From Burkholderia metallica (GTDB lineage: Bacteria; Pseudomonadota; Gammaproteobacteria; Burkholderiales; Burkholderiaceae): DNA of 64,000 nucleotides. Location of the stretch: contig NZ_CADFDB010000007.1 of the NCBI RefSeq assembly GCF_902832845.1, forward strand, positions 124,001 through 188,000. Direction: 5' to 3'. Positions 23,698 through 47,714 of the stretch are shown here, piece by piece; position 1 is the stretch's first letter; each line of letters begins with the position of its first letter. The notes below the pieces were generated by a model. That model was not told the DNA's origin and did no database searches. It worked only from the letters and a program-made list of their open reading frames with translations. A program made the translations under genes and the position numbers.

Positions 23698-23844
23698 CGC
23701 GGATATCGGCTCGCGCCGAGCGTACGTCGAGCCGACAATCGTACCATTCGCGCGACCGCGCGAAGCGCGCCACAGCCATGCTGCGACACGGTTGCAGCGC
23801 AACCGCTGATGTCGGAGCGGTGCCGAAATCGGGTATCCTACGGC

Positions 23845-24015
23845 CGTTCGTTCGCCGGTGCCCTTCGGGGCCGAAGAGGGAACACAGGGCGCGCCGCGCG
23901 CCGCTGTGGCTGCCCCCGCAACTGTAGACAGCGAGCCGATCCCCCTCACGCCACTGGTTCGACCGGGAAGGCCGGGAGCCGGCGCCGACCTGTCAGCCAG
24001 GAGACCTGCCGGCCA
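23845..24015 (+). ncRNA. cobalamin (B12) riboswitch upstream of cobG
   Basis: The adenosylcobalamin riboswitch core is clear: GGTGCCCTTCGGGGC at the 5' side, AAGAGGGAACACAGGG, GCTGTGGCTGCCCCCGCAAC (the conserved junction), and the B12 box AGCCAGGAGACCTGCC at 23995-24010. It precedes cobG-cobH-cobI-cobJ and should shut the operon off when the coenzyme is abundant. The outer boundaries are approximate. Confidence 0.93.
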
Positions 24016-24095
24016 GAAAGTGCGTGCGTGCCAGTCGGCGTCGGGCGGGGTGTACCGATGCGTTGGCCGCGGCGCGACACTGCCCCGGTATCCCG

Positions 24096-39883: not shown

Positions 39884-39953
39884 GGCGGGTTTTTCCAGTG
39901 GGTTGAAGCAGAAGCAGCAGAAGCCGCGATCATAGCGCACCGCCGGCCGGCGA

Positions 39954-40637
39954 TCAGCCGGCGCGACCCGTGCACAGCGCGTCGGCCGTCACCCACTGCG
40001 CGCCCCACGCCGCGGCCAGCCGCGCGCCCTGCCCGATCCGCACGGCCGCGTCGTCGAAGTCGACGAACACGACGTGATCGGCCGCCGCGGGTTTCGCGGG
40101 CGTCTCGCGCGTGCGTCCGTCGGACAGCACCCACAGCCAGCGCTGCGCGCCGGGTTCGCGCCGTGCCGCGCGCGCGAGCAATTGCGCGGCGGCCGCGATG
40201 CCGTCCGCGAGCGGCGTGCCGCCGCCGCCTTCGACCGGTTCGAGCCAGCGCGCATTCCACCAGCGCGGTACGGCCGGGCCGAAGCGCCGCACAGCGCCGT
40301 TGCCGCCGAAGCAGATCAGCGCGGTTTCGACCCGGTCGCGCGCAGCCTGGTCGAAATACGCGACGATCAGCCCCTTCGCCAATGCGAGCCGCTCGTGCGA
40401 CAGCATCGATGCCGAACAGTCGAGCACGAAGCAATGCAGCGCGTGCGGCGCGCCCGCGCGTTTCCGCAAGCGCAGATGATCGCGCTGCAGCGGGCCGCCG
40501 CGTTTCGCTGCGAGCGTCGCGGGCCACGCCACGGCCGTGCCCGCGCGTGCCGTACCCGGCACGTGCGCGGCGGCGCCTGCTTGCCATCGAGGACCGCGAA
40601 CGGCGTTCGCGGCGGCGCGGGCTCGATGGCTCAGCGT
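39954..40637 (-). CDS. chlD: VWA-domain chelatase subunit, probably made by -1 frameshift as ATPase-VWA fusion
   Basis: This frame encodes a von Willebrand A domain with a complete metal site: FVLDCSASML (DxSxS), the threonine in GGGGTPLAD and the aspartate in WVLSDGRTR. It has no convincing start of its own; the first start-like codon is a GTG at 40562 with no ribosome site, and coding-like sequence (LSHRARAAANAVRGPRWQAG) continues upstream to the slippery run at 40637-40643. A -1 shift there would join it to the upstream ATPase, giving about 584 residues, the layout of ChlD/BchD-type medium subunits that work with CobN or ChlH in metal chelation. Confidence 0.8.
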   Translation of the reverse strand, partial: TLSHRARAAANAVRGPRWQAGAAAHVPGTARAGTAVAWPATLAAKRGGPLQRDHLRLRKRAGAPHALHCFVLDCSASMLSHERLALAKGLIVAYFDQAARDRVETALICFGGNGAVRRFGPAVPRWWNARWLEPVEGGGGTPLADGIAAAAQLLARAARREPGAQRWLWVLSDGRTRETPAKPAAADHVVFVDFDDAAVRIGQGARLAAAWGAQWVTADALCTGRAG

Positions 40638-40643
40638 TTTTTT
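40583..40643 (-). promoter_or_regulatory. candidate -1 programmed ribosomal frameshift signal
   Basis: Read on the minus strand, the ATPase frame is CTA AAA AAA CGC TGA. The heptamer A-AAA-AAA (40643-40637) is followed by six bases (CGCTGA) and then by an RNA structure: an outer perfect nine-base stem (GCCATCGAG at 40630-40622 with CTCGATGGC at 40591-40583) enclosing an inner perfect eight-base hairpin (CCGCGAAC / GTTCGCGG, loop GCC, 40612-40594). A -1 shift continues as ACG CTG AGC into the VWA frame. AAA and CTA codons are rare in the surrounding genes. Confidence 0.82.
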
Positions 40644-41707
40644 AGCGGCAGCGGCATCACGCCTTTCACGTCGCGCAGCCCGGCCGGCTCGGGCGGCAGG
40701 TAGCCCCAGTCGCCTTGCGGTGGCGTGGCATCGTTCTGCGCCGCGCCCGATGGCTCGCCGGGGCGCTCGCGCGCATCGGGCGAAGCGTGACCGCCGCGTT
40801 CGTCGTCGGGTTGCGGCGCGCCGGACGACGGCGGCATGCCCGCATGGCGCCGGTGCCGCAGCACCGCGTCAGCCACCCGCTCCACGTGCGACACCGCCAC
40901 TGCGTCGGCCTGTTCCAGCGCGGCCAGTGCGCGCGCCGCGCGCAGCATCACGAGATCGGCGCGCAACCCGTCGACGGCCGCGTCGATGCACAGCGCGCTG
41001 ACGCGCGCATGAACCGCATCGTCGAAATCGAGCGCCGCGAGCCGTGCGCGCGCCGCGTGAATCCGGTCGCCGAGTGCGCGCTGCGCGGCGGCATGACGCG
41101 CGCGAAACGCATCCGGATCGAGATCGAACGCGAGCCGCGCCTTCACGATCCGCTCACGCTGCGCGGCGTCGAAGCAGTTCTCCAGTTCGATCATCAAGCC
41201 GAAGCGGTCGAGCAGTTGCGGCCGCAGTTCGCCTTCCTCGGGATTCATCGTCCCGATCAGCACGAAGCGCGCGTCGTGCGCATGCGACACGCCATCGCGC
41301 TCGACGATGTTCACGCCGCTCGCGGCGACGTCGAGCAGCGTATCGACGAGCCCGTCGGCGAGCAGGTTCACCTCGTCGACATACAGCACGCCGAGATGCG
41401 CGCGCGCCAGGAGGCCCGGCTGGAAGCGCACGCCGTTTTCGGCGAGCGCGTGCGCGAGATCGAGCGTACCCGTCACCTGTTCGTCGCTCGCCGACAGCGG
41501 CAGCGTGACGAACTGCCCTTCCGGCAGCAGCTCCGCGAGGCCGCGCGCGGCGGTCGACTTCGCGGTGCCGCGCGGCCCGCTCACGAGCACGCCGCCGAGC
41601 GACGGGTCGATCGCGGCGAGCAGCAGCGCCTGCTGCAGCGCGTCCTGCGCGACGAGCGCCGCAAACGGAAAAACCGCGCGGGCGCGGTGCGTCGTCGGAC
41701 CGGTCAT
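40631..41707 (-). CDS. chlI: AAA+ ATPase subunit of magnesium/cobalt chelatase (ChlI/BchI-like)
   Basis: This 358-residue ATPase has Walker A SGPRGTAKSTAARG (about 43-56), Walker B GVLYVDEVNLL (Asp111, Glu112) and the sensor region IGTMNPEEGELRPQLLDRFG. The last 60 residues are a Pro/Asp-rich linker like the one joining the ATPase and VWA parts of ChlD. The zero frame ends at TGA directly after an A7 run, so this is the short form; see 40583-40643. The ATG overlaps the cobN stop by four bases, tying it to cobaltochelatase. It probably replaces CobS/CobT in cobalt insertion. Confidence 0.9.
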   Translation of the reverse strand: MTGPTTHRARAVFPFAALVAQDALQQALLLAAIDPSLGGVLVSGPRGTAKSTAARGLAELLPEGQFVTLPLSASDEQVTGTLDLAHALAENGVRFQPGLLARAHLGVLYVDEVNLLADGLVDTLLDVAASGVNIVERDGVSHAHDARFVLIGTMNPEEGELRPQLLDRFGLMIELENCFDAAQRERIVKARLAFDLDPDAFRARHAAAQRALGDRIHAARARLAALDFDDAVHARVSALCIDAAVDGLRADLVMLRAARALAALEQADAVAVSHVERVADAVLRHRRHAGMPPSSGAPQPDDERGGHASPDARERPGEPSGAAQNDATPPQGDWGYLPPEPAGLRDVKGVMPLPLKKR

Positions 41708-44700
41708 CGCCGTCCTCCTTCCTGGAATTGTTCGCTCGCGAGCCAGACCGCTTCGATCCGTTCGCGATAGTCGCCCGGCTGCTGCCACAGGCCGCGCTGC
41801 ATCGCCTCGACGAAGCGTTCGCAGATGCCGTGCAGCGCCTTCGGGTTGTACCGTTCGAGGAACGCGCGGGTCGCATCGTCGAACAGGTAGGCGTCGGCGA
41901 CGAGCGCGTACTGGTGGTCGGACAGCACGCGCGCGGTCGCGTCGTAGCCGTACAGATAATCGACGGTCGCGGCCATTTCGGCCGCGCCCTTGTAACCGTG
42001 GCGCTTCACGCCGTCGAGCCATTTCGGGTTGATCACGCGCGAGCGGATCACCCGCGCGATTTCCTCGCGCAGCGTGCGCATCTTCGGCGCGGCCGGGTTC
42101 GCGTGGTCGCCGTGGTAGAGGCTCGGCTGCTGCCCGGACAGATGCCGCACGGCCGCGGTCATCCCGCCCTGGAACTGGTAGTAGTCGTTCGAATCGAGGA
42201 TGTCGTGCTCGCGGCTGTCCTGGTTCTGCACGACGACGTCGATCGTCGCGAGCCGCTCGCCGAACACGTCGGCCGCCGCGTCGCCCGCGCTGTTCTGCGC
42301 ATACGCGTGGCCGCCCCACTGGCGATATGCGTCGGCGAGGTCGGCGTCGGTCTGCCAGCGGCGCTGGTCGATCAGGTCCTGCAAGCCCGCGCCGTAGCTG
42401 CCCGGCCGCGCGCCGAACACGCGCCAGCCGGCGCGGCGCCGCGCCTCGTCCGGCGCGACGCCCTGCGCGATCCATTTTGCGCGTTCGCGCTCGATGCGCG
42501 CGCGGATCGGGTTCAGTGCCTCGGGCTCGTCGAGTGCGGCCACCGCCTGCACGGCCGCATCGAACAGGTGCATCAGGTTCGGGAACGCGTCGCGGAAGAA
42601 GCCCGACACGCGCAGCGTCACGTCGATGCGAGGCCGGTCGAAGATCTCGATCGGCAGGATCTCGAAGTCGGTCACCCGGTGGCTGCCGTGCGCCCATTTC
42701 GGCCGCACGCCGAGCAGCGCGAACGCCTGCGCGATGTCGTCGCCGCCGGTACGCATCGTCGCCGTGCCCCAGACGGACAGCCCGATCGCGCGCGGATAGT
42801 CGCCGTGATCCTGCAGGTGGCGCTCGATCAGTTGCTGCGCGGATTTCAGGCCGAGCGACCACGCGGCCTGCGTCGGCACCGCGCGGGTGTCGACCGAGTA
42901 GAAGTTGCGGCCGGTCGGCAGCACGTCGGGGCGGCCGCGCGACGGCGAGCCGCTCGGCCCCGGCGGCACGAAGCGGCCGTCGAGCCCGCGCAGCAGCTGG
43001 CGCATTTCCTCGCCGCCGCACGCGTCGAGCGCGGGCAGCAGCGTCGCGCGCACGCGTTCGATCACGGCGAGCGTGTGCTGCCATTCGCCGGGAGGCGTCG
43101 CGTCGGTGCCCGTGTCGCCATCGTCCGCCGCGCACAGCGCGTCGAGCCATTGCTGCGCGAGCCGTTCGAGCCGCTCGCGCGTATCGCCCGCATGGCGCCA
43201 CGGCGACGCGTCGAGCGCCTGCAGGATCGCCGGGCGCGGGCCGACCCACGGCGCGGCCCAGTCGGCCGCGAGCGGATCGAAGTCGTCGCCGAGCGCGAGA
43301 TCGCGCGCGAGCGCACCGATCAACCCTGCGCGGCCGCCCTTGCCGTCGCCCAGCGGAAAGCGCGCGAGCGCGAGCAGCGTGTCGCGGCGCTGCCGATCGG
43401 CCGGCGACAGGCCGAACACGTGCAGCCCGTCGCGGATCTGCGCTTCCTTCAGTTCGCACAGCCATGCGTCCACGCGCGTGAGCAGCGCATCTTCGTCGCC
43501 CGTATCGCGTGGCGGCGACACGCTCAGTTCGTCATGCAGACGATGCTCGGCGATCGTCGCGAGGATCGTCTTGCGCAGCAGCTTCGCGCGCCGCGCATCG
43601 ACCATCAGCGCTTCGTAGTATTCGTCGACCTGCCGTTCGAGATCCTGCAGCGGGCCGTAGTTTTCCGCGCGCGTGAGCGGCGGCATCAGGTGATCGACGA
43701 TCACGGCCTGCGCGCGGCGCTTCGCCTGGCTGCCCTCGCCCGGATCGTTGACGATGAACGGATACAGGTGCGGCAACGGCCCGAGCGTCAGGTCGGGCCA
43801 GCACGCGTCGGACAGTGCGACGCTCTTGCCCGGCAGCCATTCGAGGTTGCCGTGCTTGCCGAGGTGGATGACCGCGTCGATGCGGTACGCATCGCGCAGC
43901 CAGAAATAAAACGCGAGATACGCGTGCGGCGGCACGAGATCCGCATCGTGGTAGCTCGCGTAGTCGTTCTCGCCGCGCGAGCGCGACGGCTGGATGCCGA
44001 CGAACACGTTGCCCGCGCGCCAGCCGGCGATCGTGAAGCGGCCTTGCCGCAGCGTCGGGTCGGCTTGGGGCGGACCCCAGCGTGCGTTCAGCGCATCGCG
44101 CACCGCCGCCGGCAGCCGCGCGAAACGCGCGACGTAGTCGGCCAGCGGGTAGCTCTGGAACGCGGGGCGCAATGTGTGCACGGCCGGGTCGTTGGTCACG
44201 CCTTCGGTGAGGCGCGCGATCAACGCGTCGCCGTCGGGCGGCAGGTCGGCCACCGCGTAGCCCGCGTCGCGCAGCGCCGCGAGCACGCGCAGCGCGGACG
44301 CCGGCGTGTCGAGGCCGACGCCGTTGCCGATCCGCCCTTCGCTTTGCGGATAGTTCGCGAGGATCAGCGCGATGCGCTTGTCGGCGTTGTCGAGCGTGCG
44401 CAGCCGGCACCAGCCGCGCGCGAGCGCCGCGACGAACGCGATCCGCTCGGCGTCCGGCTGGTAGCGCACGACGTCGACTTCGGTATGCGGGCAGCGATAC
44501 GCGAGCCCCTTGAAGCTCACCGCGCGCGTGACGATGCGGCCGTCGACCTCGGGCAGCGCGATGTGCATCGCGATGTCGCGCGCATGCAGCCCCTGGTTGT
44601 CGGCGACCCACGCGTCGCGATTGCCGCCGGACAGGATCACCTGCAGCACCGGCGCGTCGCCCGCGAGCACGTCGTGTTCGGGGCTGTCGATCGCGCCGGC

Positions 44701-45513
44701 CGCGAACGCGGTCGTATTCAGCACGAGCGCGACCTCGTGCGTGTCGCAAAGCTGCGTGATGACTTCGCGGCTCACCGCGTCCTTCAGCGACGTGACCGCG
44801 ATCGGCAACGGATTGAGCCCCTGCTCGACGAGCGCATCGCCCAGCGCATCGAACACGGCCGTGTTCGCGGCCTGCCAGTGCGCGCGATAGAACAGGATCG
44901 CGACGACGGGCGCACCGGGCGTCCAGCGCGGCCGCCAGTCGTCGACGCTCGCGCGGTCGCGCGCCGGGTGATACAGCGCCGCGGCCGGCAGCGGGCGCGG
45001 CAGTTCGGGGGCGTCGCCGAACCCGAGCGTATGGAACGCAATGCTGCGCAGCAGCGCGTCGGCGTTGTGCACGCCGCCTTCGCGCAGATAGCGCCACCAC
45101 AGCCGGCACAGGTCGGGCGCGACGGTACTCTTCGCGACGAGGTTCGGGTCTTCCTGCAGGTCGCCCGAGAACATCGCGAGCTGCTGCCCGCGCTTCGACG
45201 CGAGCGACACGGCCTGCTCGATCCCGTACGGCCAGTACGCCTCGCCGCCGAGATGGTCGATCACGACCGCCTTCGCGTGCCGCAGCACGTCGTCGACATA
45301 GAAATCGACCGACGCCGGCTGCCGCAGGAACGTGACGTTCGCGAGCCGCACGCTCGGGAAACCGGCCGGCAGCCGCGGCACGACGCTCGCGAGTAGCGAC
45401 AGCGTCGTGTCGGCCGAACTCAGGATCACGATGTCGGCCGGTTGCTGATCGATCCGGACGACGCCCTGCGTATCGTCGACGAAGCCGCCCGGCGTGGTGC
45501 GCAGGAGATGCAT
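41704..45513 (-). CDS. cobN: aerobic cobaltochelatase large subunit
   Basis: The protein has 1269 residues, the normal size for CobN. It binds hydrogenobyrinate a,c-diamide and inserts cobalt with help from an ATPase and a VWA subunit. Family segments include LEWLPGKSVALSDACWPDL, FEILPIEIFDRPRIDVTLR (close to the C-terminal third) and ALHGICERFVEAMQRGLW near the end. It is cytoplasmic. It lies six bases downstream of cobW and overlaps the ATPase gene by four bases, so cobW-cobN-chlI/chlD form one leftward transcript, probably under the riboswitch at 46940-47165. Confidence 0.96.
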   Translation of the reverse strand: MHLLRTTPGGFVDDTQGVVRIDQQPADIVILSSADTTLSLLASVVPRLPAGFPSVRLANVTFLRQPASVDFYVDDVLRHAKAVVIDHLGGEAYWPYGIEQAVSLASKRGQQLAMFSGDLQEDPNLVAKSTVAPDLCRLWWRYLREGGVHNADALLRSIAFHTLGFGDAPELPRPLPAAALYHPARDRASVDDWRPRWTPGAPVVAILFYRAHWQAANTAVFDALGDALVEQGLNPLPIAVTSLKDAVSREVITQLCDTHEVALVLNTTAFAAGAIDSPEHDVLAGDAPVLQVILSGGNRDAWVADNQGLHARDIAMHIALPEVDGRIVTRAVSFKGLAYRCPHTEVDVVRYQPDAERIAFVAALARGWCRLRTLDNADKRIALILANYPQSEGRIGNGVGLDTPASALRVLAALRDAGYAVADLPPDGDALIARLTEGVTNDPAVHTLRPAFQSYPLADYVARFARLPAAVRDALNARWGPPQADPTLRQGRFTIAGWRAGNVFVGIQPSRSRGENDYASYHDADLVPPHAYLAFYFWLRDAYRIDAVIHLGKHGNLEWLPGKSVALSDACWPDLTLGPLPHLYPFIVNDPGEGSQAKRRAQAVIVDHLMPPLTRAENYGPLQDLERQVDEYYEALMVDARRAKLLRKTILATIAEHRLHDELSVSPPRDTGDEDALLTRVDAWLCELKEAQIRDGLHVFGLSPADRQRRDTLLALARFPLGDGKGGRAGLIGALARDLALGDDFDPLAADWAAPWVGPRPAILQALDASPWRHAGDTRERLERLAQQWLDALCAADDGDTGTDATPPGEWQHTLAVIERVRATLLPALDACGGEEMRQLLRGLDGRFVPPGPSGSPSRGRPDVLPTGRNFYSVDTRAVPTQAAWSLGLKSAQQLIERHLQDHGDYPRAIGLSVWGTATMRTGGDDIAQAFALLGVRPKWAHGSHRVTDFEILPIEIFDRPRIDVTLRVSGFFRDAFPNLMHLFDAAVQAVAALDEPEALNPIRARIERERAKWIAQGVAPDEARRRAGWRVFGARPGSYGAGLQDLIDQRRWQTDADLADAYRQWGGHAYAQNSAGDAAADVFGERLATIDVVVQNQDSREHDILDSNDYYQFQGGMTAAVRHLSGQQPSLYHGDHANPAAPKMRTLREEIARVIRSRVINPKWLDGVKRHGYKGAAEMAATVDYLYGYDATARVLSDHQYALVADAYLFDDATRAFLERYNPKALHGICERFVEAMQRGLWQQPGDYRERIEAVWLASEQFQEGGRR

Positions 45514-45519
45514 CGTCCG

Positions 45520-46608
45520 TTACGCCTGTTGCGGCTCGGCCGCGCAAGCGGCGTCGAACGCACGCTGCAGCGCGGCCGCGTCGAGATCCTCGCCGATCAG
45601 CACGAAGCGGCTCGCGCGCGTTTCGCCGTCCTGCCAGCGACGGTCGAAATAGCTGTCGAAGCGGCGGCCGACGCCCTGGATCACGAGCCGCATCGGCGCA
45701 TCGGGCAGCGCCGCGAAGCCTTTCGCGCGGTAGATCGTGTGCGCTTCGACCACACGCTGCAGCGCGGCGATCGTCGCTTCGCGCGTGCCGGCGTCGCCGG
45801 ACACGACCACCGAGTCGAAATCGTCGTGATGGTGGTCGTGATCGCCGTCGTCGGCCGAGCCGTGATGATCGTGACGCAGGTGGATCGTTTCTTCCGATGC
45901 CGATTCGAGCCCGAGCAGCATCGCGAGATCGAGTTCGCCGCGCGTCGCGCGCACGATCTTCACCTGCGGCGGGATCTCGTCGCGGATCGCGGTTTCGATC
46001 TGCGCGAATTGCGCGTCGCCGACGAGATCGGCCTTGTTCACGATCACGAGATCGGCGGACGACAGTTGATCGGCGAACAGTTCGTGCAGCGGCGATTCGT
46101 GATCGAGGTTCGGGTCGGCGCGTCGCTGCGCGTCGACGGCCTGCGGGTTTTCCGCGAACTGGCCGCTCGCGGCCGCCGGCCCGTCGACGACGGTCACCAC
46201 CGCGTCGACCGTGAAGCTGTTGCGGATCGTCGGCCAGTTGAACGCCTGCACGAGCGGCTTCGGCAGCGCGAGGCCCGACGTCTCGATCAGCACGTGGTCG
46301 ATGTCCGCGCGGCGCTCGACGAGCGCCTCCATCACCGGATAGAACTCTTCCTGCACGGTGCAGCACAGGCAGCCGTTCGCGAGTTCGTACAGCTGGCCCG
46401 ACGCTTCGCCCTGCGCGCCGTCGGCATCCTCGCAGCCGATGCCGCAGCCCTTGAGGATTTCGCCGTCGATGCCGAGTTCGCCGAATTCGTTGACGATCAC
46501 CGCGATGCGGCGGCCTTCGGCGTGCTGCAGGATGTGGCGCATCAGCGTCGTCTTGCCGCTGCCGAGAAAGCCCGTGACGATCGTGACGGGAAGCTTGCGT
46601 AGGGTCAT
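45520..46608 (-). CDS. cobW: CobW GTPase, metal chaperone-like
   Basis: This 362-residue G3E-family GTPase has a P-loop GFLGSGKTT (residues 13-21), the metal-binding CxCC motif in NGCLCCTV (Cys79, Cys81, Cys82) and the base-recognition segment IVNKADLV. A His/Asp-rich stretch (LRHDHHGSADDGDHDHHHDD, about 230-255) is typical of metal-handling members. It is thought to deliver cobalt to cobaltochelatase. It is immediately upstream of cobN and 24 bases downstream of a Cys-containing small ORF. Confidence 0.95.
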   Translation of the reverse strand: MTLRKLPVTIVTGFLGSGKTTLMRHILQHAEGRRIAVIVNEFGELGIDGEILKGCGIGCEDADGAQGEASGQLYELANGCLCCTVQEEFYPVMEALVERRADIDHVLIETSGLALPKPLVQAFNWPTIRNSFTVDAVVTVVDGPAAASGQFAENPQAVDAQRRADPNLDHESPLHELFADQLSSADLVIVNKADLVGDAQFAQIETAIRDEIPPQVKIVRATRGELDLAMLLGLESASEETIHLRHDHHGSADDGDHDHHHDDFDSVVVSGDAGTREATIAALQRVVEAHTIYRAKGFAALPDAPMRLVIQGVGRRFDSYFDRRWQDGETRASRFVLIGEDLDAAALQRAFDAACAAEPQQA

Positions 46609-46740: not shown

Positions 46741-46939
46741 GGTGCTTCCTTGCGAACGGTCGACATCGTGAATGCCAACACGGCTGCCGCCGGCCCGGCT
46801 CGCGCTGCCTGCCGTTCGCCGCGCCGGCCGGCGCGCGCTCGCGCGGCGGCAGATCGGCGGAGGCAGCGTGCAACGCGCGGGCGTCGGGCCTGCTGCGGCC
46901 GTGGACGATGCGCCGCCTCCCCGCGGCGCTGTACCCCAA

Positions 46940-47165
46940 TGTTCGGGCCGGTATCCGGGCTGACGAACACGCCGCTTCGCCTTCCCGGATGCGCGCGGCA
47001 TCCAGTGGCGGTCGTCCGCATGCATCGGCATGCGGCGAAGCGGCGTTGCGTGGCGCTTGCGCGCGACGCGTTCGCTTACCGTTGCGGGGGCAGCACAGGT
47101 TGGCTCGACTGCGGCGCAGGCAGGCTCCCTGTTTCCCGTTTAACTGCGCGCACCGGAGCGGCGCG
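46940..47165 (-). ncRNA. cobalamin riboswitch upstream of cobW-cobN
   Basis: Read leftward the element has GGTGCGCGCAGTTAAACGGG, GAAACAGGGAGCC, the core TGCTGCCCCCGCAACGGTAA and the B12 box AGCCCGGATACCGGCC (46961-46946). It precedes the small Cys-containing ORF and cobW. About 200 bases without another convincing gene separate the B12 box from the first start. It is closely related to the rightward copy at 47318-47535. Confidence 0.93.
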
Positions 47166-47317
47166 CGCGAGCACCAAAACGCGTGCGAGTGTAGGCGGCG
47201 GTGCGGGGAGCGTCAAGGCGAACGGGGCCGCCGGGCCGCATCCGGCACGGCCGTCGCGCCGCGCCGCAGGCCACGCGCGGCGGTTCGCGCGGGCGGATCG
47301 CTGTGCTATCGTATGCG

Positions 47318-47535
47318 CCGCGTTCGGTGCTCGCAGGCGCATTCCGCGCCCGCAGTTAAACGGGAAACAGGAGGCGGCTCCCCGCCCGGCCTGTGCTGTC
47401 CCCGCAACGGTACGCCGCCCGCGCGACGCGCTTCCCCGCGCACGCGCCCATGCCGCCCACGATGCCACTGCCCTTCAGCCGGGCGGGAAGGCCGCGGCCT
47501 GGCAAGCGGCCAGCCCGGATACCGGCCGACGCAAG
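47318..47535 (+). ncRNA. cobalamin riboswitch upstream of cobA-cobE-cobO-cobB
   Basis: The element begins near CGTTCGGTGCTCGC, carries GCAGTTAAACGGGAAACAGG (47352-47371), the core CTGTGCTGTCCCCGCAACGG and the B12 box AGCCCGGATACCGGCC (47512-47527), identical to that of the divergent copy. The approximately 180 bases between the box and cobA hold the switch region. It probably represses the rightward operon when coenzyme B12 is plentiful. Confidence 0.93.
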
Positions 47536-47714
47536 GGGCGAGCCCGACGCTCGCCGAACGCCCGATCCGCGGGGAACGGATGGGGTGCGCCTTCCGCCCG
47601 CGTTCGCGCGGGCTTCGTTCGATCCGTGATGCGTGACTTCCTAGCTGGCCGCCGCCGTGCCGGCCGCCTGCCCTTTTCCACTGTTTCGACACGGTGCGCG
47701 CCGTGCCGCGCCCG

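Follow-up and report, generated by a model that had tools for sequence, protein, structure and literature searches.

A central question raised by this locus was how a genome that encodes a large cobaltochelatase subunit obtains the small and medium subunits of the same enzyme. The locus lies on the minus strand of a 64,000-nucleotide (nt) stretch of Burkholderia metallica DNA (contig NZ_CADFDB010000007.1, positions 124,001 to 188,000; the window). An open reading frame for a ChlI/BchI-like AAA ATPase of 358 amino acids (40631..41707, minus strand), the proposed small chelatase subunit, overlaps there with a -1 frame that contains a VWA domain (39954..40637, minus strand; stop codon at 39956-39954), the C-terminal part of the proposed medium subunit. 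Searches of the genome with CobS and CobT models yielded no matches, and the BchI/ChlI model matched only the chlD-type ATPase gene; this gene must therefore supply both the small and the medium subunit if an aerobic chelatase is functional. Judged from the DNA sequence and its homologues, the locus would encode, with a probability of approximately 95%, a programmed -1 ribosomal frameshift that yields these two subunits.

The ATPase frame closes with CTA AAA AAA CGC TGA (40645-40631). As proposed in a preliminary description of this DNA, it contained a slippery heptamer A_AAA_AAA in the phase of the ATPase frame (40637..40643, minus strand), followed by a six-base spacer, CGC TGA (40631..40636, minus strand), that includes the zero-frame stop codon (40633-40631). 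The two-tier structure described at the same time was also recovered. Directly 3' of the stop codon, a stem-loop (40583..40630, minus strand), assigned on the basis of fold, covariation and a position test, comprised an outer stem of 9 bp, GCCATCGAG (40630-40622) with CTCGATGGC (40591-40583), which enclosed an inner hairpin of 8 bp, CCGCGAAC (40612-40605) with GTTCGCGG (40601-40594). The -1 frame was open across the heptamer and ran on into the VWA domain, ending at 39954. Product sizes calculated from coordinates were 358 residues (41707 to 40631) and, with one base re-read, 584 residues (41707 to 39954), in agreement with the sizes given earlier. In the ATPase, matches to Pfam AAA_5, Mg_chelatase and AAA_lid_2 all exceeded their cut-offs, and scores with TIGR02442 (375 bits) and TIGR02030 (316 bits) were both under the curated family cut-offs. 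The -1 frame exceeded the cut-off of Pfam VWA_2 and aligned to positions 457-589 of TIGR02442, which describes a single-protein cobaltochelatase family yet was split over two frames at the B. metallica locus.

Conservation was assessed in a genus set and in a wider genome scan. Sixty-five Burkholderia genomes were searched and 63 loci examined, leaving out G016 (no match) and G057 (a weak match of 33% identity). The scan comprised the best 80 of 542 loci; its closest named ATPase relatives were from Burkholderia sp. Bp9143, B. arboris, B. anthina and B. territorii (86-90% identity), which we take to lie in or close to the B. cepacia complex. Counts of -1 arrangements left out scan loci L031 (no VWA part found), L080 (contig end) and L077 (fused frames). 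Six Burkholderia loci of the scan (L008-L012, L015) were counted in the genus set, which left 71 frameshifted loci from other genera, including Paraburkholderia, Caballeronia, Trinickia, Pandoraea, Cupriavidus, Variovorax, Rhodoferax, Hydrogenophaga, Thauera, Denitromonas and Pseudomonas.

The arrangement of A_AAA_AAR, one codon, TGA and a VWA part in the -1 frame was present in all 63 Burkholderia loci. In the other genera, A_AAA_AAR was followed by one codon and a stop in 71 of 71 loci, so that the gap between heptamer and stop was exactly one codon in 134 of 134. Zero-frame stops were TGA throughout the genus (63/63) and TAG (36), TGA (34) or TAA (1) elsewhere. Heptamer, spacer and stem, whose conservation the preliminary description had named as support, were thus conserved in the genus, with compensating changes in the stem. 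A sequencing error or a decaying gene could produce a similar frame break, and the B. metallica assembly is a 37-contig draft. However, the identical break and heptamer recurred in all 63 genus loci and in 71 loci of other genera, and a single intact frame, which would have pointed to such an error, occurred in none of the 63; the probability of this explanation is negligible.

The base composition of the heptamer and its surroundings also bore on whether the ribosome or RNA polymerase would slip. The codon that contributes the first A of the heptamer always ended in A (63/63; CTA in 54, TCA in 4, TTA in 3 and CCA in 2 genus loci). Because only 8 of 2736 Leu codons at other sites of the gene are CTA, this first A itself appears to be under selection. 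Two A7 runs occurred in the window, compared with 0.22 expected, and 5 of 100 shuffles also reached two; the A run by itself therefore counts for little, and the case is made by the comparative data. A homopolymer might instead cause RNA polymerase to slip and generate a mixed pool of mRNAs, consistent with A7 in 61 of 63 genus loci and 25 of 71 others, and with a run of ten A's in L158. A6G, present in 2 of 63 genus loci and 46 of 71 others, suits tandem tRNA slippage and is a poor run for polymerase slippage. Since many homologues carry A6G, and since phase, stop and stem position are all fixed, transcriptional slippage was considered very unlikely.

The position of the proposed frameshift was further delimited by the frames themselves. 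Measured from the opening of the -1 frame to the stop of the ATPase frame, 14 loci have an overlap of just 28 nt, and two loci of a class-wide sample (L160, L161) have one of just 22 nt. Both overlaps contain the heptamer, and a shift is therefore confined to the stretch that bears it.

Folding analysis supported a structure immediately downstream. The 51-nt stem region folded at -28.9 kcal/mol, compared with a shuffle mean of -17.6 kcal/mol (z -4.2; 0 of 200 shuffles as good), and the minimum-energy fold extended the inner hairpin by one G-U pair. The fold of a wider 141-nt stretch was unremarkable given its base composition (z -0.83; equalled or bettered by 36 of 200 shuffles). A role of the stem as a terminator was rejected: a terminator scan gave none on the minus strand at 40583-40630, and the sole match overlapping this interval was on the opposite strand, where the slippery A run reads as a T run. 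No Rfam family was matched at 39900-41800 at E 1.

Covariation was analyzed in an alignment of 57 of the 63 genus loci (49 distinct rows), from which L148 and five loci with longer loops were left out. Over the whole structure, 97.4% of cells were paired and both-side changes occurred at 7 of 17 pairs, a number matched by 1 of 500 shuffles, while slid versions of the structure reached at most 4. Taken separately, the outer stem had 100% of its cells paired and three pairs changed on both sides; for the inner hairpin, the figures were 94.4% and four. The structure as a whole exceeded slid versions on all measures and shuffles on most.

Across genera, stems were counted in 133 of the 134 frameshifted loci (L148 was dropped for a run of N). 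An outer stem beginning at the stop codon formed 8 or 9 of 9 pairs in 131 of 133 loci when G-U was allowed, and in 124 of 133 without G-U, compared with means of 13 and 2.4%, respectively, at shifted control positions. The total of 131 includes longer-loop loci L152-L156, which formed 8 or 9 of 9 pairs once the reach was widened; the two remaining loci, L029 and L049, formed 7. The slid control peaked at +16 (73/133), the position of the Burkholderia inner hairpin. When arms were swapped between loci, 20% reached 8 or 9 pairs, compared with 126 of 133 observed at the same, shorter reach. The 5' arms comprised 27 distinct sequences, yet the stem continued to start at the stop codon.

Several observations weighed against a programmed frameshift. 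Lys codons elsewhere in the gene were AAA and AAG in nearly equal numbers in the genus loci (103 and 104; 4 versus 17 in the cobN gene of the window); with AAA so commonplace, AAA codons alone therefore show little. The covariation shuffles take no account of relatedness, further pair types were the weakest covariation measure (equalled or exceeded in 35 of 500 shuffles), and the top pair of the inner hairpin was broken in 16 of 49 rows. In addition, a 50-nt fold at the site ranked among the local top 5% for 32 of 62 genus loci and came first for only 4; in other genera, it was in the top 5% in 57 of 71 and the best in 35 of 71. Local fold energy is a poor marker because these genes are so GC-rich. 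Finally, the preliminary description had correctly traced the -1 frame into the VWA domain, and its statement that this frame lacks a start of its own was slightly too strong: in-frame GTG codons occur at 40562 and 40532, the latter at the opening of the VWA query stretch.

These GTG codons raised the possibility that the VWA part is a separate gene, initiated internally and coupled to termination of the ATPase. GTG was present at +71 from the stop, corresponding to 40562, in 37 of 63 genus loci. It was absent from the other 26, among which L136 has ATG at this position. Moreover, the open -1 frame, followed to 60 nt beyond the point at which VWA homology begins, was free of ATG, GTG and TTG in 4 of 63 genus loci (L108, L145, L149, L155) and 2 of 71 non-Burkholderia loci (L029, L075), and by eye no Shine-Dalgarno-like run was seen just 5' of the GTG in the window. 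Because the GTG is not conserved and four genus loci have no candidate start, internal initiation, which would also leave conservation of the heptamer unexplained, was judged to be highly improbable.

Under the favoured mechanism of programmed -1 frameshifting, ribosomes that stay in frame would terminate at the TGA one codon after the A run and produce the 358-residue ATPase as the small subunit. A minority of ribosomes would slip back by one base through tandem slippage on A_AAA_AAA, probably stimulated by the stem-loop located six bases 3' of the heptamer, and would produce the 584-residue ATPase-VWA fusion as the medium subunit. Both products would then act with CobN in aerobic cobalt insertion. 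The slip itself, its stimulation by the stem and the functions of both products are inferred, as is the efficiency, for which an A7 cassette of this family in E. coli offers a value of 10% (PMC3711429).

The start of the ATPase gene overlaps the stop of cobN (41704..45513, minus strand; Pfam CobN-Mg_chel, 1333 bits), which encodes the large cobaltochelatase subunit, as ATGA, and AAGGAGG lies six bases 5' of the ATG. A cobW-type GTPase gene (45520..46608, minus strand; Pfam cobW, CobW_C) is located upstream of cobN. Upstream of cobW, on the strand of the chelatase genes, a cobalamin riboswitch was identified (46929..47193, minus strand; RF00174, 53.5 bits, gathering score 31.5). It is one of three in the window, the others being located at 47307-47544 and 23839-24027 (both plus strand). 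Two of the riboswitches are divergent: one faces cobW-cobN-chlD and the other cbiG-, cobO- and cobB/cobQ-like genes. A genome search with TIGR02442 gave one further weak match (24.8 bits) on a different contig.

The frameshift was not universal in the family. In the class-wide sample of 276 genomes, 19 matched at E 1e-40, including that of the window. The remaining 18 loci comprised 4 frameshifted ones, which also showed the A_AAA_AAR order (heptamers judged by eye), 9 that were fused in one frame and 5 that were organised otherwise. ATPase and VWA parts share one frame in an alphaproteobacterial metagenome-assembled genome (L077) and in the nine class-sample loci (L162-L169, L175).

Other departures concerned single genomes. 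The Burkholderia genomes without a good match to the gene were 99% complete (G016, 5.8 Mb) and 82% complete (G057); lack of a match in the former may reflect loss of aerobic B12 synthesis. In Cupriavidus basilensis OR16 (L031), heptamer and stop are intact and the VWA frame ends after its first residues (after about 3553). Judged by eye, the reading frames downstream resemble what we take to be a PrlF/YhaV toxin-antitoxin pair, and the break is possibly due to an insertion.

Frameshifted chlD-type genes (fs-chlD) are reportedly also the subject of a 2020 paper by Antonov in Mol Biol Evol on -1 frameshifting. E. coli dnaX resembles the B. metallica locus in its A-rich slippery heptamer, its downstream hairpin and the production of two subunits of one enzyme from a single gene. 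The dnaX product that arises from the shift is the shorter of the two. An upstream Shine-Dalgarno-like stimulator, described for dnaX in a 2013 survey (PMC3711429), had no counterpart in Burkholderia: a search for six motifs at 4-22 nt 5' of the heptamer was positive in 0 of 63 genus loci, and in 6 of 78 loci of the scan set. The same survey reports a -1 cluster in which six genera including Burkholderia are represented by 23 chelatase genes, in line with the prior reports mentioned in the preliminary description, as well as RefSeq annotation of such genes as two adjacent genes and frameshifting of 63, 40, and 10% in E. coli for chelatase cassettes with 11, 9, and 7 A's, respectively (PMC3711429). 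A 2022 evolutionary model includes the view that chlD frameshifting may supply both Co-chelatase subunits (PMC9227772). The B. metallica locus showed no essential difference from fs-chlD (PMC3711429, PMC9227772): ATPase and VWA parts in overlapping frames with VWA in -1, a conserved A_AAA_AAR, a downstream RNA structure, an adjacent cobN, no separate small-subunit gene detectable with the BchI/ChlI, CobS, CobT and TIGR02442 models, and one gene for the proposed small and medium Co-chelatase subunits.

An A_AAA_AAR site and a chelatase stem in Pseudomonas are described in a 2016 recoding review, which suggests for this stem a purine/pyrimidine polarity and a possible triplex relevant to divalent cations (PMC5009743). 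Burkholderia shares with this site the heptamer type and a stem starting at the stop codon. In contrast, the distance between the outer arms had a median of 30 nt in the two-tier Burkholderia stem versus 18 nt in Pseudomonas loci, and the pyrimidine content of the 5' arm was 44% (9 nt) and 48% (14 nt) in Burkholderia versus 57 and 64% in Pseudomonas loci, which indicates that polarity is not general. This type of frameshift is thus already known, in a genus already named as a carrier. The present analysis adds two details, the invariant heptamer-codon-stop-stem geometry and covariation of the stem in Burkholderia; neither was met in the literature searched, with supplements outside the search, and they are not claimed as unpublished.

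The constant position of the stop codon suggested a further, rather doubtful interpretation, in which the stop would itself be a working part of the frameshift signal. A gap of one codon to the heptamer and direct contact with the stem base characterised the stop in 134 of 134 frameshifted homologues by script, and in 4 more by eye, and in 34 of the 36 loci with a TAG stop the G of this stop can form the first stem pair. If this interpretation is correct, termination speed or metal binding by the stem could tune the subunit ratio, beside the upstream B12 riboswitch.

The fixed geometry, with the stop in the spacer, provides a clear, testable detail of this signal. Annotation of the locus as two separate genes or as a pseudogene would be a mistake. 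Together, these results give dense comparative backing to the published view that, in the aerobic B12 producers of this group, one gene provides two chelatase subunits.
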